Positions 3,940-50,105 of a stretch of 64,000 nucleotides of DNA are shown here, in pieces. The translations under genes were made by a program, and so were the position numbers. Origin of the DNA: an uncultured Tateyamaria sp. (GTDB lineage: Bacteria > Pseudomonadota > Alphaproteobacteria > Rhodobacterales > Rhodobacteraceae); contig NZ_CANNDS010000005.1 of assembly GCF_947503415.1 (NCBI RefSeq), positions 124,001-188,000 on the forward strand. The letters run 5' to 3'. The notes under the pieces are model-generated. The model saw nothing but the letters and a program-made list of their open reading frames with translations, was not told where the DNA came from and did no database searches. The first letter of the stretch is position 1; every line of letters begins with the position of its first letter.

Positions 3940-6900
3940 TCAGGACCGCTCCTCTGCATCCGTATCGTCACCAAACGTCGCCATCAGTCGGGCGAAATCA
4001 TCCTCGTGCATGCGTGCCGCGGGGAAGCTGTCGACCGAGAAGGTGGCGTGCTGATGGGCGCGGGTGGCCTCGACCAGCGCTTCGAGTTCTTCCAGCATCA
4101 TGTCTGCGAAATCCTGGATCGAAGCTGCATCGTATTGCTTGTCGCTGTAGACCCAGGTGAACCCCAGCCGTCCAAAAGACACCGCCCCGTCGACTTCGAT
4201 CAGGTGGCGCCGTTCGGCCTGTGGTGCACGCATCGCGCCCATGTCTTCGGGCGCTGCCCGAATGGTGCCGTCTTCCTGACCGCCAAACTGACCAAGGTAG
4301 TTGAAGCTGATGTCGCGCATCGGCAGATCGTCAAGTTTGCCCCGAATGTCGGCATTGTCAGACAGGTAACGCAGCACGCCAAAGCCCGCGCCGCGATCCG
4401 GGATGGCATCCAACTGATCTTGGACCCGGATCAGGGTGTCCGCGACGGGTTCATCTGCATCCACATCCAGCGCCACGGGGAAGATCGAGGTGAACCACCC
4501 GACGGTGCGCGACAGGTCCATGCCCGGATCGACCAACTCGCGGCCATGACCTTCGAGGTCGAAATACGCGACAGGCACTTCGCCCCAACGCACCATCGCG
4601 CGCGAGAACGCGGTCAGAAGCGCGTCGTTGATCCGGGTCTGGAACACTTGCGGCACTTCGGTCAGCACGGCACGTGAGAGGTCGTCGGAAAGCTCGACCC
4701 GTATTTCGGACGCGTCACCTTCGGTGTTGGACCCTTCGCGGTCGATGGGCAGGAACGCGTCGTCGTTCGGCGGCACCGACGCCCAATACGCGGCTTGCGC
4801 CGTCATGTCAGCCGCTTGCGCACGCTTGTGCATGGCGCTGGTAAATGCTGCAAGGGACGTCGTCTTGGCGGGCAGGGTGATCGCTGCCCCCTCGACCACC
4901 TGTTGGTAGCCCTGCCACAATTGTTCGAACAGGATGCGCCATGACACGCCATCGACCACGAGGTGATGTGCGCAGATCAGCAAACGGGCCGGGCGTCCCG
5001 GACCCATGTCGAACAGAACGACGCGCAAAAGTGGACCATCGGCCAGATCAAGCGACGCCTGCATCTCGGCACAGGCGCTTTCCAGTTCGCGCGTCTGTGC
5101 GGCCCCCCAATACATGCTCAGGTCGATCCATTCGATCCCGTCCTCGTCGCTCAGATCAGCGTGGTGTGCGGTCCAGCCCGTGTCGCCGTTTTTGAAACGG
5201 AGCCGCAGCGCGTCATGGTGCAACAGGAGCGCACGCACCGAAGCATCCAGCGCCTCGGCATCAAGCTCTGGCGGGACTTGCAGCAGGAAGGATTGGTTGA
5301 AGTGGTGTGGGGCAGGAGACGCGTTGTCGAACATCCACGCTTGCGCCGGCGTCAATAGACAGGGGCCTGTGACAACGCTTTGGTCGATGCGGTCCAGCGG
5401 CGTCTCTTGCGCAATCGCGGCCAGTTCCGCGATGGTCTGGTTTTCGAACAGCTGCTGGGCCGTGAACAGGATGCCTTCGGTCTTGGCGCGCGAAACGATC
5501 TGGATGCTGAGGATGGAATCCCCGCCCAGTTCAAAGAAATTATCCAGCACACCGACCTGATCCAGTCCGAGAACATCGCCCCAGACCCATGCCAGGGTTT
5601 TTTCGATATCCGATGTGGCCAAGGCCAGTTCTGCGGTGGTCGCAAGTGCCCGTTCACGCACCGGTGCGGGCAGTGCCTTGCGATCCAGCTTACCATTCCG
5701 GGTGAGCGGCAACGCTTCCATCACGACGTAGTGCGAAGGTTGCATATAGGTGGGCAGGTGTTCGGTGGCGGCCAAGCGCAGTGCTGGAACCAACGCCTCG
5801 GCCACCAGTGCGTGAACCGGATTGTTGGCGTATGCCGTCCAGTCCGGTTCGGTGGACGGCGCTGGCGCCAATGGTGGAATTACAGAGGTGCCGGCGGCGA
5901 AGTGCAACGTACAGCAGGCCGGATTTTCATCCGACGGAACAATGGCCAATGACAGCCCGAGCCTCTCTGCCATGTCGTGCAGTTCGTCGGGCATCGGCGC
6001 GTCTGCGGCGAGCAAAGCCTGCACGTTATCGGCTGAGATCGTGTCATCCCCGTCGCGCACGGCAGCCCAGACCGCAGCAATGCCCGAGACCCTGCCGTTG
6101 GGTACGTTCGTGACCGTGACCGGGGCGCTGTCCGACGTCAGGTGCGCCTCCAATGTACCGAGGGTCAGACCGTCCTGTTCCCAATCCATGCGCGGCTGAT
6201 TGTCGTTGATAAGCTCGCATTCCCCGATGTGCAGAACAACATCATAGCGGAATTGCGACAGCTCGTTTTCCGCATCGCCGCGTTTCCATTGAATATCCGC
6301 CGCCGCGATACGGGGGTGGTGACTTGCCAGCAATCGGAAGAACGCAGGATCGACAAGCAGCTCCCGTTCGATCTGGACGCCGTCCAAAACCCGACGGGAA
6401 ATGTCGGCGCAGTCGATGTCACCTTCATGGCGGGCCAGTTGGATGGCAGTGTGAAAATCTTCGACCAAAGGCAGGCTGCGCAGATCACCCAAAAAGACCT
6501 GCCCTTGGGTCGGGATCGCCGCGATGGCTTGATCCAGCACGTCCTTGAGATAGGCAATGCTCGGGAAATACTGGACAACGGAATTCAGCAGCACGGTGTC
6601 GAATTCATCGCTCCGCTGATCCCCCAATGCGTCAGCGGGTGCCGCGTGCAGATCGCATTTGTCCGCCAGACCTGCCTTGGTCATTCCGCTTTGAAGAGTG
6701 TCGATCACGGGGGCCGACACGTCGGTGCCGCGGTAGTATTCGGCGCGTTCTGCCAGCGGATAGGCCATCATCCCGGTGCCACAGCCAATTTCGAGCACAC
6801 GTTTGGGATCGCACGCGCCGATCCGCGCCAGCGTTGCATCCAGCCAGACACGCATCTCGTCCGCCGGGATCGGCTGGCCGGTGTAACTTGATTGCCAGCC

Positions 6901-20762: not shown

Positions 20763-20839
<77 letters not shown>

Positions 20840-41744: not shown

Positions 41745-43835
41745 CTACCTGAACTTGATCCGGCTCACATCCACCGCGTAGCGGTATTTTCCAGATCCCG
41801 ACTGGGTTGGATCAGGTGCCGTGTCGGGGGCGAGCTTCTTCATGCCGGGCACATACGACACCGGGTCCGCGGCCCAATCGCGGCCACTGCCCGAGAAGGC
41901 GTGGATCGCCACACCCGCCGCTCTGGCCATGCGTGGGGCAGCACTGCTGGTTCCGCTCCGTCGCACAAGGGTCCCACTGCGCGATCCGGCGCTCAGGACC
42001 CCGCCAAGAAAGACGCTTTCGTCGCCCTCTGCCGTCAGGTCCGGTCCGTCCCGATCTGATCCGAATGTGGAAGATGGGCGGTTGCAGGGGCCAGACGCGG
42101 AATAGGCGGACAACTCTGACGTGCGGGCCGTGTATGCGGCCACCACCACCGGCGAGTCGCCACAGGCAAACCCGCTGAGTGTTCCGGCCCGTGTCACCGG
42201 GCAATCCGAGTTCGGCGGGTCGGTGCGCAGCGGCTCACCGTACTTTCCGAACCGTTCGTAGCAGGGATTGTCAAAAAAGGCCTGTTTGCCGCCCGGCCTG
42301 AGACCCGGCAGTGTTTCGTCCCTGCGTACCCATAGCTCGATCTGGTTTTCAGCATCCGCTTCGCGCAGAATCCTGATCGTCCAGATGCCCGACGGTGCCA
42401 CCGGTTCTGACTGGTCAATGCTGGCTGTCGGGCTGATGGAGAGCTGCGCAAGGCCGCGCTGTATCCGCCCGGACGAAAACGCGTAGGACAGACGTGCAAT
42501 CTCCTTGCCGTCGGGATCGTTGAACCGTGCGCTGGGGGTGCCGGTGGTGAAAACCTGATGCGTTTCGCGAGTTGGAGACGTAACCTCGATGACCGCTTCG
42601 GAGGGGTGTGTGCCCGCGTAAGGCATCCAAATCTGTACCAAACCGCTGGTGCGATCATCCGGCAGCACGGACAGGTTGAACGTGGTTTCCGTATCACCAG
42701 CCCGTGCGACGCCATGCAGACGCGACAGGTTCGCATTGCCGGCTGGCAGCGTCAGCCATGTTTTCTGCTGTTCGGACGTGGTGACAGCGCCGGGGCCAAA
42801 ATAATGCTCGAACAGGCGTGCAAACAGTCCGGTGCCGTCATGCGGCCCACCTGAGTTTCCGTACGAGAGGTTGAACACCACCTTCGCGAGGTCCCCGTTA
42901 GCGGTTCGGAAGCGACGCGCCTCGTTCACCAGCATCTGGAAGCTGAGGTAGAAGCTGGGCAACAGTTCCACGCCAGACGTGTCCTCGACCAGCCGGGAGG
43001 GCAGCGCGGCGCAGATGATGGGCCTGTCCGGCCCGCTTGCATCCATCAATTGACCAGCGGCGAGCCCCATCACGTGGCTGCCATGGGATGAGCGCAGCGC
43101 CACTGTCGAAAACACCTGATGAAAGAAGTCGACCTGCCCGGTGCGCGCGTAGAACATGTCTTCGTCAAGCAGGCCGTCAAAGGTGCAATCGCTCAAGAGC
43201 GCATCAATCGCGGGTTTGTGCAGCACCCGTCCAGCCGTGCTGTCTGGATCCTGAGGCAAGGGCCGTGCACCCAGTATTGCGGCATAGGCCACGCGGCTGG
43301 ACACGGCACCGTCGCGAAAGAGGTTATGCGCAATGGCAATCCCGTCATCGACAACAGCCATCACCGTGGCTGTGTCATCGACAGGCGGATGTGGCTCCGT
43401 GTTCGGCCATTGGGCATCGAAATCCAACATCTCCTGATCGATGATGCCGCCCAGTACCAACGACTGCACGCGCCATCTGTTGGCTGTCTCGCCCCGTTCG
43501 GGGCGAACGTTCAGGCGATCCAGTGTGGATTTGCGCGCAAAGATTGATACCGGTTGATCATCGCGGGTGATTGCCCGTTCCTTGGCGCCATAGGCAACCG
43601 GGACCAGAAACTGCACCTCGTCATCCGGGATGGGCGGGAGGTTCGGAGCGCGCGTGCCAAGACCGCGTTCCATCGCGTTTGCGATGAAGGCGTCAATGGA
43701 GCCTTCGATCTCGATTAGGGCAGACCACCATTCATCCCGTTTGAAGACGTGTTGGAGCCGGGTAAGACGGAAATCCGCCTCCTGGCTCAGCGGGACGGGT
43801 GCGTCGCCGGGGACGTCGTCTGGATAATCCTGCAT
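41745..43835 (-). CDS. Subtilase (S8) peptidase without evident signal peptide
   Basis: 696 aa. The catalytic triad is visible: Asp in MAVVDDGIA near 160, His in SSHGSHVMGLAAG near 250, and Ser in RSGTSSAAPRMAR near 630. The oxyanion Asn is in FNLSYGNSGG. A roughly 150-residue N-terminal region precedes the catalytic core. A beta-rich insert of about 230 residues (around 370-560) lies between the His/Asn and Ser parts. The N terminus is hydrophilic (MQDYPDDVPGDAP), so export by Sec or Tat is not apparent. It lies 12 bp after the SAY-repeat PAP2 gene and shares its operon. A peptidase that trims or matures a neighbouring product is inferred. Confidence 0.92.
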   Translation of the reverse strand: MQDYPDDVPGDAPVPLSQEADFRLTRLQHVFKRDEWWSALIEIEGSIDAFIANAMERGLGTRAPNLPPIPDDEVQFLVPVAYGAKERAITRDDQPVSIFARKSTLDRLNVRPERGETANRWRVQSLVLGGIIDQEMLDFDAQWPNTEPHPPVDDTATVMAVVDDGIAIAHNLFRDGAVSSRVAYAAILGARPLPQDPDSTAGRVLHKPAIDALLSDCTFDGLLDEDMFYARTGQVDFFHQVFSTVALRSSHGSHVMGLAAGQLMDASGPDRPIICAALPSRLVEDTSGVELLPSFYLSFQMLVNEARRFRTANGDLAKVVFNLSYGNSGGPHDGTGLFARLFEHYFGPGAVTTSEQQKTWLTLPAGNANLSRLHGVARAGDTETTFNLSVLPDDRTSGLVQIWMPYAGTHPSEAVIEVTSPTRETHQVFTTGTPSARFNDPDGKEIARLSYAFSSGRIQRGLAQLSISPTASIDQSEPVAPSGIWTIRILREADAENQIELWVRRDETLPGLRPGGKQAFFDNPCYERFGKYGEPLRTDPPNSDCPVTRAGTLSGFACGDSPVVVAAYTARTSELSAYSASGPCNRPSSTFGSDRDGPDLTAEGDESVFLGGVLSAGSRSGTLVRRSGTSSAAPRMARAAGVAIHAFSGSGRDWAADPVSYVPGMKKLAPDTAPDPTQSGSGKYRYAVDVSRIKFR

Positions 43836-43847
43836 ACCAACCCCCGA

Positions 43848-45005
43848 TCAGTCTTGTGACGCGGGGAGGTCGCGCCATTCGGCCACGGCCTGTTTCCACA
43901 GCCAGTTCAGCATTGCAGCGGACGTGCCGTCGTGGTCATGTTTCTTGGAACTGCCCCAATGCGTGCCGCCGCTTTCGATTTTCTTGCGGATGCGGTCGCC
44001 GTCCGGGCGGTAGAGCGCGTGCCATTCGAAATCCGATTCCGAATTGAAACTGGTGCCGTCAAATACGCTGGAGGTCCAGCCACAGCCGTCGGCAACGTCG
44101 TGGATGTGTTCGGCCAGTGTCAGGCCAAGCAGCGCGCCCGCGGCACTGTCGACCGGGAAATGCACACCCGCAACCGTCCGGTTGATGGCCACGCGTGAAG
44201 CTTGCCGCATCAGCATCTCACCCCAATAGGCGTCATCGGTGTATTGCGGCGCCTGGCTTTCACGCAGCAGTTTCCAAAGGATGCGCGCGATCAGGAAGGC
44301 TTCGGTCGCGTGACCGCTGGGCAGGGACGCATGGGTTGGCGTGGGGATCATCGGTTGCACCTGGGGCGAAAACTCGATGGGGCGCTTGACCGCAAGTGCG
44401 AACTTGGTGCGCTGAATGACCGTGAACGAGAACATCGTCGCCGCATTCAACAGCTCAAGCGTGCGCGGTGTGCGCGACGGATCCATGTAGCCGATGGTGG
44501 CGAAAAACGGGATGGGCAGACTGATCTGGCCAAGGATTTCCGCGGCCCGGTCGCCCCGGATTTGAGAGTAACCTTCAAGGTAGTTCATCTGATCGGCCAG
44601 TTGGTCGATGGTCGGGGCCGTCATTTCCATCATCTCGGAGAATTTGGGCGCTTTGCCCCCGGCGCTGATCCCATCGCGCCGCCAGACGGTGACGCCGGGC
44701 GTGCCGCCCTCACACTGTGCCGTTACATCGACGGTCGGTGCCAGTTCGGACATGTAGAGAGCGGTTTGCACATCTGTTGACAGACGCTTTAGCGCGTTTG
44801 GATCGTTTGGTGGGGCGGGGTTGGGATGGGTTATCTTGTCGATGGTCGCCCCGACAATCCCGTCGCGGTTCGTCATCAGGGCAAGCGCATCTACCGGCGC
44901 CTCCCGTCCATATGCACTATAGGCGCTGTAGGCACTGTATGCGCTATAAGCACTGTAGGCACTATACGCGCTGTATGCGCTATACGCACTCTCTGGATTT
45001 GCCAT
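43848..45005 (-). CDS. PAP2/vanadium-haloperoxidase-fold protein with N-terminal (Ser-Ala-Tyr)9 repeat
   Basis: 385 aa. After MANPE come nine uninterrupted Ser-Ala-Tyr triplets (residues 6-32), then GREAP. The rest resembles bacterial vanadium-dependent haloperoxidase-like PAP2 proteins: AVKRPIEFSP, PSGHATEAFLIARIL, and the SRVAINRTVAGVHFPVDS His-containing motif. Residues expected to bind phosphate or vanadate (Lys, Arg, Ser-Gly-His, Arg, His) are all present, so an active phosphatase or haloperoxidase is plausible. No signal peptide or membrane segment is visible. It is co-transcribed with a subtilase and preceded by a regulator gene. The repeat has no counterpart I know in this family. Confidence 0.88.
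   Translation of the reverse strand: MANPESAYSAYSAYSAYSAYSAYSAYSAYSAYGREAPVDALALMTNRDGIVGATIDKITHPNPAPPNDPNALKRLSTDVQTALYMSELAPTVDVTAQCEGGTPGVTVWRRDGISAGGKAPKFSEMMEMTAPTIDQLADQMNYLEGYSQIRGDRAAEILGQISLPIPFFATIGYMDPSRTPRTLELLNAATMFSFTVIQRTKFALAVKRPIEFSPQVQPMIPTPTHASLPSGHATEAFLIARILWKLLRESQAPQYTDDAYWGEMLMRQASRVAINRTVAGVHFPVDSAAGALLGLTLAEHIHDVADGCGWTSSVFDGTSFNSESDFEWHALYRPDGDRIRKKIESGGTHWGSSKKHDHDGTSAAMLNWLWKQAVAEWRDLPASQD
44910..44990 (-). repeat. 9-bp tandem repeat x9 coding Ser-Ala-Tyr
   Basis: Nine in-frame copies of AGY-GCN-TAY. All differences are at third codon positions: Ser is always AGT or AGC, Ala uses all four codons, and Tyr is TAT or TAC. First and second positions are invariant. 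The peptide sequence, not the DNA, therefore appears to be what is preserved. Confidence 0.97.
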
Positions 45006-45032: not shown

Positions 45033-46862
45033 TCAGTTGGGAACGCCGAGCGATCTGAGGACCTCGGCAAAGCGTTGCCCGTTCTGGAATTCGGCGCTGG
45101 GTGAGCTTCTTTGCCATTCGCTCACGCGGAAATCGGGCTGCAGCGTCAGCAACTCGTCTGCGGCCTTTTGTGCAGCGTCGTGATCACCCGAACCGAAATA
45201 GGCAACGGGAAGCATCCGCCTGGCCGACATATGTGCCCGGTTCAGCCGCAACGACTGCTTGGTCAAGGCCAATGCCCGGTCGTAGTCCTCTGCGGCCAGA
45301 CTGGCTCCTGCAGCGAGGGTCAGATACATGAACCGATGCGGATCAAGCGGCGTGAGATGCAGCGCTCGTTCGGTATCGCGTTTGGCGTTTTGCCCGCGAT
45401 CCGTGAAGCCACGCAACATGCCGCGCAGACTGCGTCCGTTTGCATCGTTCGGGTTGTTTGCCAACGCCTGATTGTAGCGTTCTTCGGCCGTATCCAGATC
45501 ATGGGAAAGGTGCACAAGAACCTGACCTTCACAGACCAGTGCAAGCGTGTGGTTCGGGTCCAGATCCAGCGCGCGGGAGGTGTGTTCAAGCGCGCTTTCG
45601 GACTCGCGACGCGGATCGTCGGCCCAGCCCTGGATCGCTTTCAGGGCGTGCCAGCGTGCCATCCAAGCAAGCGGGGCAGGGTGGTTCGGAACCTTCTCGT
45701 GCAGCAGATCCAAATAGCCTTTGGCCTTTTTGAAATCATCAGGCGACAGCCGGTGCATCAGGCCCACGGCGCCGCTCAGAACGCTGAACAGTTTCAGATC
45801 GCCAATCGGGCGGGAATGCACGCGCCTGACCTCATTGGCCATAATCGCGCGGCGGATGTTTGCGACCACAAGGTCCAGCCCTTCGGTCGACGGCATCGCC
45901 GGGTCATAGGGCACCTGCATCCGCTCCGCCCACAGAACGTAGCCTGTTTCTGTTTCAGCAAACTCCAACGACACCCAAACCTGGTTTCCATGGTGCGCCA
46001 GAACGCCGGACAGGATGAAATCCGCATTCAGCCGGGTGTGCACATCAGCAATACCCAGTGGCTCGCCGCCAAGTGTGCCGGTGGACATGCGTGAGATGAC
46101 ATTGACGTCTTGTCCCATGCCGAGCAGGCGCGCGACTTCGTCTGCCAGAAAGAACCCGAACACATCCATTGCATCCGACGCGATGCTTTTGAAAGGCAGA
46201 ACGGCAAGCGTCGGCATGACGTCGCGCGGATCGAGTTGTGGGGCAACTGTTTCGATGTCGGGATTCAAGTGCGCGTTCGGAGCAATGACATGGCCTTGTG
46301 TCATCGCAGCGGGCAGGCCGGTCCGGTGCCCTTGCACATCAATTGCCGAAACCTGCGCCCCAAACAGGCGAAACCCTTGTTTCGGCACTGTCATCAGGAT
46401 CTGACGATCCCCGTCCATCAACGCCAGCCTGATGTCCCTGATGCATTGTGTCAGGCTGGCATCCGTGACGATGGTATTCGGCCACACTTGTTGAACAAGG
46501 TCATCTTTTGAAACCAGCTGTCCGAGGTGTCCGGCGAGAATATCAAGCACCAGCGCGGATTGCGCGCGCAGATATGTGGCCTCTCCGTTTGGTCCGGTCA
46601 GTTGCCCGGACCCGACCTCGTACACATAGCCCCCCAGCTGCACGATTGACTGCACCCGGTCATTGCCATCACGACGGATTGCACTTGTATCGACGCTTCC
46701 ATCGCCCTGCATTGTGATCAACCCCAGTTTCAGGGGGAGTGTCATGTGTCCCGGCTGACAGCCCCCCACCCCGACACGCGCATTTGTAGATGCTGTAGGT
46801 GCGAGGTGAGGTTCACGCAAAACGGGTTCAGTGTCCACCAGATTGTCAGATGCACAAGTCAC
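45033..46862 (-). CDS. Winged-helix / TPR transcriptional regulator (CadC-like, soluble)
   Basis: 609 aa from the GTG at 46862, whose GTGA overlaps the upstream stop; an ATG at 46745 (MTLPLKLG, 570 aa) is a reasonable alternative. The OmpR/CadC-type winged-helix domain spans about 75-185 (VYEVGSGQL, HLGQLVSKDDLVQQVW, SLTQCIRDIRLAL, TVPKQGFRLFG). A TolB/FlgO-like domain follows (TLAVLPFKSIASD, DFILSGVL), then TPR repeats to the C terminus. There is no transmembrane helix, unlike classical CadC, so it should sense an internal cue. It lies 27 bp upstream of the SAY-repeat gene and probably controls this island. Confidence 0.86.
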   Translation of the reverse strand: MTCASDNLVDTEPVLREPHLAPTASTNARVGVGGCQPGHMTLPLKLGLITMQGDGSVDTSAIRRDGNDRVQSIVQLGGYVYEVGSGQLTGPNGEATYLRAQSALVLDILAGHLGQLVSKDDLVQQVWPNTIVTDASLTQCIRDIRLALMDGDRQILMTVPKQGFRLFGAQVSAIDVQGHRTGLPAAMTQGHVIAPNAHLNPDIETVAPQLDPRDVMPTLAVLPFKSIASDAMDVFGFFLADEVARLLGMGQDVNVISRMSTGTLGGEPLGIADVHTRLNADFILSGVLAHHGNQVWVSLEFAETETGYVLWAERMQVPYDPAMPSTEGLDLVVANIRRAIMANEVRRVHSRPIGDLKLFSVLSGAVGLMHRLSPDDFKKAKGYLDLLHEKVPNHPAPLAWMARWHALKAIQGWADDPRRESESALEHTSRALDLDPNHTLALVCEGQVLVHLSHDLDTAEERYNQALANNPNDANGRSLRGMLRGFTDRGQNAKRDTERALHLTPLDPHRFMYLTLAAGASLAAEDYDRALALTKQSLRLNRAHMSARRMLPVAYFGSGDHDAAQKAADELLTLQPDFRVSEWQRSSPSAEFQNGQRFAEVLRSLGVPN

Positions 46863-47500
46863 GATACGCTGGATTGCAAAAATAGTGCGGCATCGCCAAC
46901 ACGGGCACAGTAAAGACCAACCAGCCCCACCGACTGGAGCGTGCGCGCCGACGTGGCCGAGATGGAAATGTCCTTGGTTCCAATGGCATATGTCAGCGGC
47001 AGTGTTGGGTTTTCGATCAAAACGCCCAGAAAGCCTGGTGCCGTGGTCGTGGTCATCACCAGCCAGCCTTTCTTGCCAAGCCGCGCCTGGGACTCTCCAT
47101 AAGCGAGGTTTTGGGCAGGCAAAACTGCACTGAAATCGGACAACTCCTCCAGATAAATAAGCTCGCTGTCTATTTCAGTCAGCAAGGGGAACACCGCGCC
47201 GTTGCGCGACCAGTCACAGATGGCACCAAATGTCGGTTTCGGGGACAGCGATGTGCAGTAGAGCCAATGGGATGTCGTGTGTGTGCCGTCGTGATCGCGC
47301 CCCATCCAGCTGTAGGTGGCACCGACCTGAATAGTGCCGGACATCTCACCATCAGAGATGGCCAGCTGATGCACCTCCTGTCCCATGATCTGGCCGGTCG
47401 ATAGTGTGCCAATGCCGTTGTAGACAACTGGGGCGACTTCGGTGGCGATACCCGGATAGTGAGGATAGACGTGAATGTCCGATATGTTCCTGCTTTGCAT
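46859..47500 (-). CDS. Hypothetical protein, first gene of the minus-strand island operon
   Basis: 213 aa from the ATG at 47500 (MQSRNISDIHVYPHYPG); the open frame extends upstream into non-coding sequence. No signal peptide or membrane segment. Tyr/Trp/Thr-rich and probably beta-structured (ATYSWMGRDHDGTHTTSHWLYC; PGFLGVLIENPTLPLTYAIG). It is coupled to the regulator gene (GTGA overlap) and divergent from the paralogous pair at 48-50 kb. I do not recognise the family. Confidence 0.75.
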   Translation of the reverse strand: MQSRNISDIHVYPHYPGIATEVAPVVYNGIGTLSTGQIMGQEVHQLAISDGEMSGTIQVGATYSWMGRDHDGTHTTSHWLYCTSLSPKPTFGAICDWSRNGAVFPLLTEIDSELIYLEELSDFSAVLPAQNLAYGESQARLGKKGWLVMTTTTAPGFLGVLIENPTLPLTYAIGTKDISISATSARTLQSVGLVGLYCARVGDAALFLQSSVS

Positions 47501-48054
47501 CTCGATGGGTCTTTCTATTTCGTCGCTCGGACGGTTTTGACGGATGTTGAGACAGCAATAGCGGCAGAGACCGCGCTTGACCTGAAATCCATCTGAAATC
47601 TGTCTGAAATTAACCATTTGGCAGAAGCGTCGCGGGACCAAAGCGAGCATGGAACACGTGATCCTTTCGGCGCGTGTTGCCGCTGGGGCGATGTCAGCGA
47701 TGGCGGGGCGGGATTGTCTGCTCCTTATGTTGGGATGTGCGCGGCGCAGACATTTGGTTCCGCGACAAGATGCGGTGCCATTTCATAGGGTTGGTCAGTG
47801 ACGGGCAGTCATGGCGAGCTCGCACCCGCTGTCTGAATTCACTGATCGAAAATGATCACGCGGTCACCTCAAGCAACTCGGCCAAAGTGGCTTCCACATC
47901 GTCTCACCAGACGTTCAACGCGGTCTGAAATCCGTTGATTTGCGTTCGATTTCACGCGGTCTTCAGGACGCCAAATGACGTGCCGCATACCCTGATTTCA
48001 CCGGCCACGATCAACCAAACAGGTCGGACACTCAACTTTGTTAGGGAGACTCTC
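47501..48054. promoter_or_regulatory. 554-bp divergent intergenic region
   Basis: It separates the minus-strand regulator operon from the plus-strand paralogue pair. No open frame in it has a ribosome site and homologue-like composition, and no RNA gene is seen. It must contain both promoters. A strong AGGGAGA lies 6 nt before the plus-strand ATG at 48055. Binding sites for the winged-helix regulator would be expected here, but I could not identify a repeated motif. Confidence 0.4.
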
Positions 48055-49026
48055 ATGTCTGCAAATCTGCCAAGTGCAACCGACGGAATGTACAATACTC
48101 TTTGTGACGCGCTGAAGCTCAGCGACAAGCAATTCCAGATGATCCAGGGTGTTTTGCCCGTTCAGTCCGACGCGTCGGGCCTCTACAACTTCGTCGATGG
48201 CATTCCGCCTCAATCCGTTGCGGTCCTGTATACCAGCAACCCGCTCAACAGCCTGAACGGCAACGTTCAAATCATGCTTAACGATGCAAACCCCAGTTTC
48301 CTGACAACCCTCGCGACCACCAATTACATGAACCCGAAGTACTGGGTTGATGGGAACGTGGCCGTGGACCCGCTGTATGTGCCGACATTCGCAGACCTGC
48401 AAAAACAGGTCGATGCGGGATCAAGCGCCAGCTTCTCGTTTGATTCCGAGACATCGGACTCCAACATCTCCAACTCCTGGGCAAACAGCAGCAGCTCTGC
48501 CGGTGTGGGGTTCTGGGGCACGTCTTCGAGCAGCGTCTCGACCGATCTGAATTCGATGGCCTCGTCTTCGCGGATCACGGTGGAGGGCACGTTTGACAAA
48601 TTCGCCTATCTGAACACCCGTGCGGGCGGCTGGTTCACGCAGGGCTTCTTTACCAACCAGTATCAGAATCCCGCCGACTGGAAGAATGGTCAAACCGCTT
48701 GGGACACTGTTTTTGGCTCCAGTGGTTCGGCGCAACGCGTGGCCAACCAGATCCTGATTGTGAACGGCTACAAAATCACCGTGCGGTCCTATGCCAGCTA
48801 TTCCGAGGCGCAGTTCTCGGAAATACAGAAAAGCAAGGACACGAATGTGTGGCCGTTCTACACGTCTTCGTCACACTCGACGGCGGTGCAGTCACACCAC
48901 CACAACGATGACCAGTCGATCTCGACCACGATCACACAAGAACCGGGAAGCCTGCAGATCTTTGGCGTCGGTGTCATTCCGACCGATCAGGCGATCCAGG
49001 GCAATACTGTCAGCAGGATGATCTAG
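48055..49026 (+). CDS. Hypothetical Ser-rich protein, paralogue A
   Basis: 323 aa from the ATG at 48055 (MSANLPSATD), preceded by AGGGAGA. An N-terminal segment of about 110 residues is followed by a Ser-rich low-complexity stretch (about 120-180). A domain with GGWFTQGFF, AWDTVFGSSGSAQRV and NGYKITVRSY comes next, and a His/Ser-rich stretch (HSTAVQSHHHNDD) lies near the C terminus. No signal peptide. The central domain aligns with the next gene, so the two are paralogues. It lies opposite the regulator operon and is a likely target of that regulator. Function unknown. Confidence 0.8.
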   Translation: MSANLPSATDGMYNTLCDALKLSDKQFQMIQGVLPVQSDASGLYNFVDGIPPQSVAVLYTSNPLNSLNGNVQIMLNDANPSFLTTLATTNYMNPKYWVDGNVAVDPLYVPTFADLQKQVDAGSSASFSFDSETSDSNISNSWANSSSSAGVGFWGTSSSSVSTDLNSMASSSRITVEGTFDKFAYLNTRAGGWFTQGFFTNQYQNPADWKNGQTAWDTVFGSSGSAQRVANQILIVNGYKITVRSYASYSEAQFSEIQKSKDTNVWPFYTSSSHSTAVQSHHHNDDQSISTTITQEPGSLQIFGVGVIPTDQAIQGNTVSRMI

Positions 49027-49139
49027 CGCGTCGTCGCAAATCCAAGCCGTCATGCAGAGTGTGTTCTGCGTGGCGGCACCTTTGCGTAGAGCAGAGCGGT
49101 CACGGCCATTCTGTCCCGACACCGCCACAGGAGGTTTCC

Positions 49140-49976
49140 ATGACGATCCGTTACGAAGACGTGCTCATCGCTGCAATTGCATCGGCAATACAGGCGGACA
49201 CCGCGTCCCTGCGCCCGGTGTTTTCCGAGTTGCCACACAATGACGCCCTTTTGTTTTCCCTTTTTGATACTGTTTCTCCCGATGCGGACGCATTGGAATT
49301 CAGCACGGTTTTCGGGCAGATTTTGACGGCGCAGCCACCCAGCCCGTTGCTGTCCGTTGCAAAGCAGAACTTCGCCCAACCAAGCAACTGGCTGTCGGCA
49401 GGCACACGTCAGATTGCGAAATACACACCAACCCGCAGCGACATCGTACAGTCAATCGATACCGGTCCGTCCATCGAACACCGGTTTGACGGGCATGGTC
49501 CGGAAGACGCGCGCGGGCTTTCCGGTCTGACGGCCTCTGACGCCGGGTTCAGGCTTTTGCCGCGGGGCGTGGATTGGACAAACGCCCGAATCCAATCGCT
49601 CAAACTGGATATTCGGCATGCGGCATTGATGCCCATCCGGCAGGGCGCGTGGTTCAATCAGGGTGTTTTCGCAATGGCCCACAGCAACCAACAGTGGCTT
49701 CCCAATCCGACGCACACGACATGGAACAGTGTATTTGGACCGGCAGGCGCGCTTCAACGCGTTCCGACGGGCGTTCTGGTGGGCTCAGGCTTGGACTTGC
49801 AAATCACGATCACGTCTGAAGATGAGTGGGACGTTGTAATACCCCCTGAATGGCCCTTGGCCAAAGCCGTGACCACAACGGCGGACATGACCGTCACCTT
49901 AACCGTGACTACACCACCTTCCGAGCCGCTATTACTTGGCTTGCAGGATCAAGCCGTCGCTGATTTGCTGGGGTAA
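49140..49976 (+). CDS. Hypothetical protein, paralogue B
   Basis: 278 aa from the ATG at 49140 (MTIRYEDVLIAA), with AGGAGG 5-8 nt upstream; an earlier in-frame start is not needed. It shares with the upstream gene the pattern G-x-WF-x-QG-x-F, then W-x-SVFG-x-x-G-x-x-QRV, then a V-x-x-G strand. This supports tandem duplication and divergence. No signal peptide, no membrane segment, no catalytic motif recognised. The 113-bp gap and same strand suggest one transcript. Function unknown. Confidence 0.78.
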   Translation: MTIRYEDVLIAAIASAIQADTASLRPVFSELPHNDALLFSLFDTVSPDADALEFSTVFGQILTAQPPSPLLSVAKQNFAQPSNWLSAGTRQIAKYTPTRSDIVQSIDTGPSIEHRFDGHGPEDARGLSGLTASDAGFRLLPRGVDWTNARIQSLKLDIRHAALMPIRQGAWFNQGVFAMAHSNQQWLPNPTHTTWNSVFGPAGALQRVPTGVLVGSGLDLQITITSEDEWDVVIPPEWPLAKAVTTTADMTVTLTVTTPPSEPLLLGLQDQAVADLLG

Positions 49977-50015: not shown

Positions 50016-50105
50016 TGGCGGAGAGACAGGGATTCGAACCCTGGGTGGGCTTGCACCCACAACGGTTTTCGAGACCGCCCCGTTCGACCACTCCGGCACC
50101 TCTCC
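50016..50105 (-). tRNA. tRNA-Ser (anticodon CGA)
   Basis: 90-nt class II tRNA on the minus strand including an encoded CCA. The acceptor is GGAGAGG/TCTCTCC with one G-U pair. Anticodon stem GCGGT/ACCGT has loop CTCGAAA, giving CGA (codon UCG). The variable arm is long (TGTGGGTGCAAGCCCAC), as in serine tRNAs. The T-loop is GGTTCGAATCC. It marks the right edge of the accessory island. Confidence 0.96.

Follow-up and report, generated by a model that had tools for sequence, protein, structure and literature searches.

The window, a stretch of 64,000 nucleotides from a contig of an uncultured Tateyamaria sp., encodes an enzyme that begins with the same tripeptide nine times over. The locus raises the question of what this repeat is, how it is kept repetitive and which protein might read it.

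The tailed enzyme in the window

The features are given below in window coordinates, the tail together with the gene that contains it and the genes around it.

44910..44990, minus strand: tail of nine perfect Ser-Ala-Tyr units, residues 6-32 (ORF translation; pLDDT about 32)
43848..45005, minus strand: tailed PAP2-superfamily enzyme of 385 aa, acid-phosphatase-like (PF01569, 6e-11)
45033..46862, minus strand: upstream gene for a protein with a winged helix, a middle domain and a TPR domain (Trans_reg_C and TPR in Pfam)
41745..43835, minus strand: subtilase (S8) (PF00082, 8.5e-11), without a hydrophobic export segment by hydropathy
46859..47650, minus strand: 263-aa ORF upstream of the TPR gene, an optional part, found near the TPR gene in close relatives only

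The product of the ORF at 43848-45005 (minus strand) starts with MANPE-(SAY)9-GREAP and continues into the PAP2 domain. As the preliminary description had stated, the nine SAY triplets are perfect and the DNA at 44910-44990 varies only synonymously: 14 bases differ from the column majority and all 14 differences are synonymous. Since only 45 of the 243 single-base changes open to the array would be synonymous, the chance of 14 out of 14 is about 6e-11, assuming that every single-base change is equally likely. In the 4.87-Mb assembly no second match to three SAY units was found when Ser codons of either box were accepted and one mismatch was tolerated. It had been considered that the true start might lie downstream of the repeat. 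A Shine-Dalgarno-like AAGGAAG is located 7 nt 5' of the ATG and the tail is kept at the protein level in relatives, which makes the ATG upstream of the repeat the credible start. AlphaFold2 predicted a confident domain preceded by a tail with a pLDDT below 50 (about 32), and in this model the SAY tail is probably disordered. No model in Pfam, NCBIfam or PADLOC covered the window's tail.

The identity of the enzyme was addressed by motif and fold. The residues of K-x6-RP, P-S-x-H and R-x5-H-x3-D were invariant in 40 aligned domains, and the Gly of PSGH was kept in at least 90% of them. Among PDB sequences the window enzyme matched an acid phosphatase at 3.6e-10 and a bromoperoxidase at E 0.016, and Foldseek placed class A acid phosphatases first, with the best haloperoxidase at E 0.0067. 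By motif and fold the window enzyme belongs to the PAP2 superfamily and is class A acid phosphatase-like, with a predicted activity; database records name the Phaeobacter copy 'phosphatase PAP2 family protein'. The PAP2 part of the earlier assignment to a PAP2/vanadium-haloperoxidase fold is upheld by PF01569 and the motifs. The haloperoxidase part was not supported, since relatives of that kind are much weaker in sequence and fold than the acid phosphatases. The active-site residues as such are common to PAP2 phosphatases and haloperoxidases. By hydropathy alone, 3 of 125 PAP2 domains passed the cut for a hydrophobic export or membrane segment, and these segments lay inside the chain.

The tail across the family

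Relatives were collected with and without the tail in the query. A whole-protein search of 148 related genomes gave a match in 45, and 40 places were fetched. Searching named genomes with the tail-less aligned domain (A1, 40 rows) gave 378 relatives, of which the best 80 were used; in a phylum-wide draw this domain matched in 54 of 398 genomes, from which the 15 strongest new loci were taken. Because these queries carried no tail, tails were not selected for in the latter two samples. Together with the window this made 136 loci, and 125 remained in the first set after removal of 11 domain-sequence duplicates. Of the 125 distinct loci, which draw on the best 80 of 378 relatives, 124 carry at least three exact copies of a unit in tandem at the N-terminus. 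The only untailed locus, L138, begins inside the domain at a contig end. The repeat is therefore not absent or frameshifted in close relatives, a possibility that had been raised against its importance. No such tail had been known to the preliminary description in this family; here it is the family rule, with many different units. Among the best 80 of 378 relatives the module was present in many Alpha- and Betaproteobacteria.

The 124 tails of the first set had periods of 3 (118 tails), 4 (4), 5 (1) and 6 (1) residues and comprised 66 unit types; the period-3 tails contained 3-19 copies. A second set of 40 regions was picked by hand from a part of the weaker PAP2 matches. In 39 of them a PAP2 match was found (L223 had none), 24 tailed and 15 untailed, and two of the tailed ones duplicate the first set. 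Their arrays include the dipeptides (NK)n, (NR)n, (SR)n, (AN)n and (GL)n as well as (DAR)7, (TGN)n and (GGNWF)3. L207, L212 and L271 have three exact copies each, and the L212 array is imperfect. Both sets together gave 80 unit types with periods 2-6 in 146 non-duplicate tails, for example SAY, NAY, SGF, GGV, DAR, NK and SR, and Pro and Cys were absent from all 146 units. The 14 weaker loci of the phylum-wide draw divided into six tailed and eight untailed.

Within a tail, the units were nearly always exact. The 118 period-3 tails held 1152 perfect units against 37 that were one residue off (in or touching the tail, in 30 tails), a count biased towards perfection by the definition of a tail as a perfect stretch. 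Interruptions occurred in 33 period-3 tails. Within 12 residues of the longest array the tail's own unit recurred in 34 tails, compared with a mean of 4 for the units of other loci. Repetition is thus conserved and unit identity is nearly free: the units are identical within a protein, are replaced wholesale between lineages and differ between paralogues of one genome. The window genome itself carries a second module on contig C1 at about 784300-785500, with a (HAG)10 tail, its own TPR gene and a subtilase. In L284 (7279-8730) a PAP2 whose dipeptide tail, (GL/GN/GS)n, is long and irregular lies beside a TPR protein, and no adjacent protease was found there. Outside the PAP2 genes, few other arrays of at least 5 units were seen in the first-set loci (1.75 Mb), and they were unrelated to the modules. 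Near position 12550 of L089 a 1007-codon frame contains (PVD)8, the other strand reading (GST)8, and the first 1.2 kb of L078 (minus strand) contain a long (GS)n.

We then compared the DNA of the units. None of the 121 tails with at least four copies had identical DNA units throughout. Adjacent units shared a codon in 788 of 2953 cases compared with 1063 after shuffling of the order (Wilcoxon p = 6e-15; 121 tails, the three first-set tails of three copies being omitted), and units two apart were identical more often than shuffled ones (83 vs 59). The avoidance of equal neighbouring codons was replicated in 19 further tails (113 of 350 vs 142, p = 0.003). The peptide is kept repetitive, and the DNA is kept non-repetitive. 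Selection on the peptide, proposed earlier from the window, was supported by the 14 synonymous differences and by this codon-neighbour test. In the simplest reading of these sequences, slippage would be harmful and synonymous changes that break up the DNA repeat would be favoured.

Copy number was followed in plasmid-borne copies, with 16 regions fetched out of 35 plasmid matches. The plasmid copies of 14 Phaeobacter strains from three species always had NSF units, in 5, 6 or 7 copies, all perfect; this sample covers 14 of 21 Phaeobacter records with many near-identical strains and six distinct tail DNAs. P. inhibens M633 has two identical adjacent units where other strains have one, which resembles a fresh 9-bp duplication, and judging from such DNA, units are born through 9-bp duplication. 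On a plasmid of Parasedimentitalea marina (4001-5042 of the fetched region) the PAP2 match lies in two pieces with the (NSF) tail still readable upstream; here PAP2 and S8 are shortened 'hypothetical' genes and appear broken. In P. inhibens M647 the tailed PAP2 has a hypothetical gene on either side, where other strains have genes annotated as TPR and S8.

The exchange of units between relatives was examined on a quick tree of the 124 domains, where the 66 unit types require 81 changes. Proteins that are 90-92% identical can differ in every unit, as in the pairs (SGY)9/(SGF)11, (GGV)12/(GGI)12 and (SGF)11/(SGL)11. In the GGV/GGI pair L115/L120 the orthologous Gly, Ile and Val codons are 73% identical, whereas the units within an array share only 24-26% of their codons. 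Amplification of one mutant unit followed by neutral drift was rejected for this pair, since the codon identity within the arrays is far below the orthologous one. Among 12 switched pairs, codon identity within the array was lower than orthologous identity in most and most clearly so in the closest; L040/L043 and L145/L156 did not follow this. A swap of the tail along with its flanks was rejected for L115/L120 and L041/L042, where the array flanks are no more divergent than the rest. The upstream flank was clearly more divergent in L144/L152 and L144/L153 and somewhat so in L092/L095, and in these three pairs tail and flanks may have been exchanged together. The order of the units could be traced (p < 0.05) in six close pairs with the same unit (L113/L116, L126/L127, L090/L101, L139/L141, L131/L140 and L068/L139), not in the other pairs tested. 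Across switched pairs it was not traceable, save for the borderline L041/L042 (p = 0.044). Arrays would have been switched by fast selected scrambling, by unit-by-unit change or by local exchange of arrays older than the species.

Partners and possible readers of the tail

The TPR ORF is 609 aa long as listed, with a GTG start. Residues 1-68 of its model had a pLDDT below 50, and the true start may lie further in. Among the 113 long loci of the first set, 111 had a TPR homologue; of the other two, L138 is cut and L067 is a contig of 9 kb from a genome that is 79% complete. In 110 of the 111 the TPR gene was within 1.5 kb of the enzyme gene, an adjacency also expected of the receptor and peptide genes of RRNPP systems, and in 87 it was on the same strand. 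In the second set a TPR match accompanied 24 of 24 tailed and 1 of 15 untailed PAP2s (Fisher p = 1e-9), where the untailed PAP2s are distant subfamilies, the events are non-independent and five TPR queries came from second-set tailed loci. The single untailed exception, L278, had a weak match. When only first-set TPR queries were applied to the first 20 second-set regions, all 14 tailed PAP2 loci gave a match and none of the 5 untailed ones did. Of the eight untailed weaker phylum-wide loci, one was covered by the comparison of tail and TPR partner. The putative output domain of the TPR protein varied: the window protein has a winged helix (Trans_reg_C), L204, L206 and L207 have Guanylate_cyc, and L271 has BTAD/SARP.

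The neighbouring subtilase, which had been noted before as a protein that might cleave the tail, turned out to belong to the same module as the tailed enzyme, with an S8 homologue at 121 of the 125 loci of the first set. By its triad the partner is a subtilase (S8): in the 121 aligned homologues Asp was kept in 120, His in 121 and Ser in 110, and the other cells are gaps. Most second-set loci had a divergent S8, which in L205 lies on the other side. In L206 (Pfam) and, by similarity, in L204, L267, L268 and L269, S8 is replaced by Peptidase_A4 (A4/eqolisin), which is unrelated to S8. Since S8 is exchanged for an unrelated enzyme, proteolysis as such seems to be needed. With the queries used, no protease was found in the four tailed loci L207, L270, L271 and L284. 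By hydropathy alone, a hydrophobic export or membrane segment was seen in 1 of 121 S8 proteins, inside the chain, and in 0 of 104 TPR proteins.

The 263-aa ORF at 46859..47650 had no match in Pfam, NCBIfam or PADLOC. Membership in a known anti-phage defence system was considered and rejected, as PADLOC gave 0 families for 6 window proteins. Further upstream, the adjacent ORFs of 363 aa (47935-49026, plus strand) and 305 aa (49059-49976, plus strand) show a distant paralogous relationship (26% over 171 columns, E 3e-15) and have no Pfam or NCBIfam match; homologues of the first also occur in L078 and L096. The window also contains a tRNA-Ser(cga) gene at 50016-50105 and a tRNA-Arg(ccg) gene at 20763-20839, both on the minus strand.

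The divergence of the partners was compared in 31 sister pairs, 16 of which have different units (median distance 0.38, compared with 0.22 for pairs with the same unit). Where the unit differs, the TPR domain was about 1.8-fold more diverged given the PAP2 and S8 distances (coefficient 0.58, permutation p = 0.005), and the excess was also seen given the PAP2 distance alone (p = 0.014); these values come from several related tests. For S8 the coefficient was -0.28 (p = 0.03; p = 0.18 given PAP2 alone). Ratios to PAP2 showed the excess in the TPR domain (p = 0.007) and in the TPR protein as a whole (p = 0.009, or 0.04 by another alignment), not in the winged helix (p = 0.15) or the middle domain (p = 0.07). 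Relative to S8 all parts of the TPR protein diverged more, including the middle domain (p = 0.004) and the winged helix (p = 0.02). When the pairs were restricted to one narrower range of distances, the TPR/PAP2 ratio was not significant (p = 0.19). Column covariation of the unit class was computed with S8, the TPR protein and PAP2, and its null was inflated in all three. The idea of a partner that itself contains the tail's unit was rejected: the fetched regions near the modules held no related array. Triplets of a tail's own unit were weakly enriched in the cognate S8 (113 vs 91 shuffled, a value reached by 8 of 500 shuffles), and no such enrichment was found in the TPR protein or the PAP2 domain. 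The co-occurrence and the divergence tests favour the TPR protein as the candidate reader of the tail.

Our leading, tentative reading takes the tail as a multivalent peptide ligand, specific to the lineage, that would be bound by the TPR protein and cut by the protease. From the architecture, co-occurrence, selection and replacement reported above, we infer binding, cleavage and an output. The array would be a ligand with a lineage-specific 'password' unit that is read by the TPR domain, and its identical copies would provide avidity or dose. Cutting of the array by the protease would either free the enzyme from the TPR protein or yield short peptides for the TPR protein to sense. Transcription or a cyclic nucleotide would then be the output, given by a domain that is exchangeable (winged helix, SARP/BTAD or class III cyclase). 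A peptide-reading module fits because the tail is linked to the TPR protein and both the protease and the output domain are exchangeable. We place the probability no higher because the sister-pair effect extends beyond the TPR domain and the co-occurrence events are non-independent. Other points against this reading are the lack of an export segment by hydropathy, the four tailed loci without a detected protease, the absence of RRNPP receptors from the 50 listed fold matches of the TPR model and the fusion of the array to an enzyme, for which a pheromone gives no reason.

Alternatively, the units of different molecules might cohere with each other in a condensate or fibre, the different units of paralogues keeping them apart. 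Such homotypic assembly is the simplest account of tails that are uniform within and free between proteins, and explains the uniformity as well as the ligand reading does. Many of the units follow a small-small-aromatic pattern or have a high content of Gly, Ala, Ser and Asn, and similar low-complexity segments are known from FUS and the FG nucleoporins. The tails are probably disordered as predicted, and the two paralogues of the window genome differ in their unit (SAY vs HAG). However, the charged units (NK)n, (NR)n, (SR)n, (DAR)7, SGD and GGE also occur and are poor candidates for self-cohesion, and the TPR partner and the protease are left unexplained, which makes assembly a doubtful candidate.

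The array could also be a site that is bound or cut by the protease of the module, with activation or destruction of the enzyme as the outcome and the copies as redundancy. The presence of S8 in nearly all first-set loci with its triad kept, the replacement by a non-homologous protease and the slight enrichment of own-unit triplets in the cognate S8 are in line with this. The divergence of S8 did not rise at unit switches, the coefficient being negative, a broad subtilase specificity would need no exact repeats, and four tailed loci lack a detected protease. We regard this explanation as rather unlikely.

Unlikely, too, is a propeptide with many copies of a 'word' of 2-6 residues, which the protease would excise and the adjacent TPR protein would read as a private signal of each lineage and paralogue. 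Here the matching of receptor and copies would drive the replacement of whole words, and the synonymous scrambling would stop slippage.

That the tails are a mutational by-product, 9-bp slippage arrays tolerated in a disordered N-terminus, is very improbable. The copy number varies by single units, M633 shows an apparent fresh duplication and the tails are probably disordered as modelled, but uniform DNA units are missing from all 121 tails, equal adjacent codons are avoided, the codons shared within the L115 and L120 arrays are far fewer than the orthologous ones and one-residue-off units are rare. A tethered substrate of the enzyme for halogenation, Tyr cross-linking or phosphate transfer, as the preliminary description had proposed, is hardly credible. 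SAY does contain Tyr and Ser, and the enzyme has the active-site residues common to PAP2 enzymes and haloperoxidases, but 104 of 124 units are without Tyr and 72 without Ser, Thr and Tyr (e.g. GGA, GGV, HAG, NVG) and the fold is nearer to acid phosphatases.

Comparison with known systems

To our knowledge, there is no known protein family in which exact repetition is conserved while the repeated word is nearly free. Low-complexity repeats of the FG-nucleoporin or prion-like type likewise have units that are short and uniform and that often include one aromatic residue; the tails differ from them in having charged and aliphatic units too and in changing wholesale between lineages. With class A (PAP2) acid phosphatases such as PDB 7f17/7f18 the window enzyme has the active-site residues and the core fold in common, and it differs by extra regions, the repeat tail, the TPR partner and the lack of an export segment by hydropathy. 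The TPR partner has a fold like that of CadC-like winged-helix/TPR regulators and of PEX5, a TPR receptor that reads a tripeptide. In contrast to these it has no membrane segment by hydropathy, and in relatives its output domain is swapped for SARP or a cyclase. Tripeptide repeats are also present in a strain-variable Bacillus bacteriocin, described in PMC2674419 as repeated Cys-Xaa-Xaa; Cys occurs in 0 of the 146 tail units. In open-licence papers no description of the module or the tail was found, and the main text of a survey of prokaryotic low-complexity regions (PMC6821194) is without the words 'PAP2' and 'tripeptide'.

Uniformity selection, synonymous scrambling and the replacement of whole arrays can be traced here in pairs of proteins that are about 90% identical. 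Even if the tail serves assembly or protease docking, the module is found in many Alpha- and Betaproteobacteria, and the tail of the window enzyme is without a Pfam, NCBIfam or PADLOC model. If the TPR partner reads the words, more than 100 matched pairs of word and receptor would be available to learn how TPR domains read short peptides.

The closest comparison is with RRNPP/RRNPPA quorum sensing. In these systems (PMC10075063, PMC11343458) a short peptide specific to the lineage and a TPR protein that carries an output domain are encoded by adjacent genes, and proteolysis is involved, as we propose for the tailed module. Some RRNPPA propeptides contain several putative pheromones (PMC11343458), and according to PMC10075063 the receptor has about 250-500 aa and the propeptide 10-100 aa. 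The TPR ORF of 609 aa as listed and the 385-aa enzyme are outside these ranges. The RRNPP/RRNPPA systems are found in Bacillota and the tailed module in Proteobacteria, where near-perfect arrays of 2-6 residue units are fused to a 385-aa enzyme. The RRNPP propeptide is exported by a Sec signal or PptAB, whereas the module is without a hydrophobic export segment by hydropathy alone. Among the 50 listed of 1656 fold matches of the window TPR model were consensus TPRs, OGT, APC subunits, PEX5 and CadC, and no RRNPP receptor of the Rap/PlcR/NprR type was among these 50. Membership in RRNPP was rejected on receptor length, propeptide size and export. In conclusion, the module may, by analogy, work like RRNPP-type peptide sensing though it is not a member of that family, and if the tail is indeed read by the TPR protein, the Proteobacteria would gain a peptide-code system.
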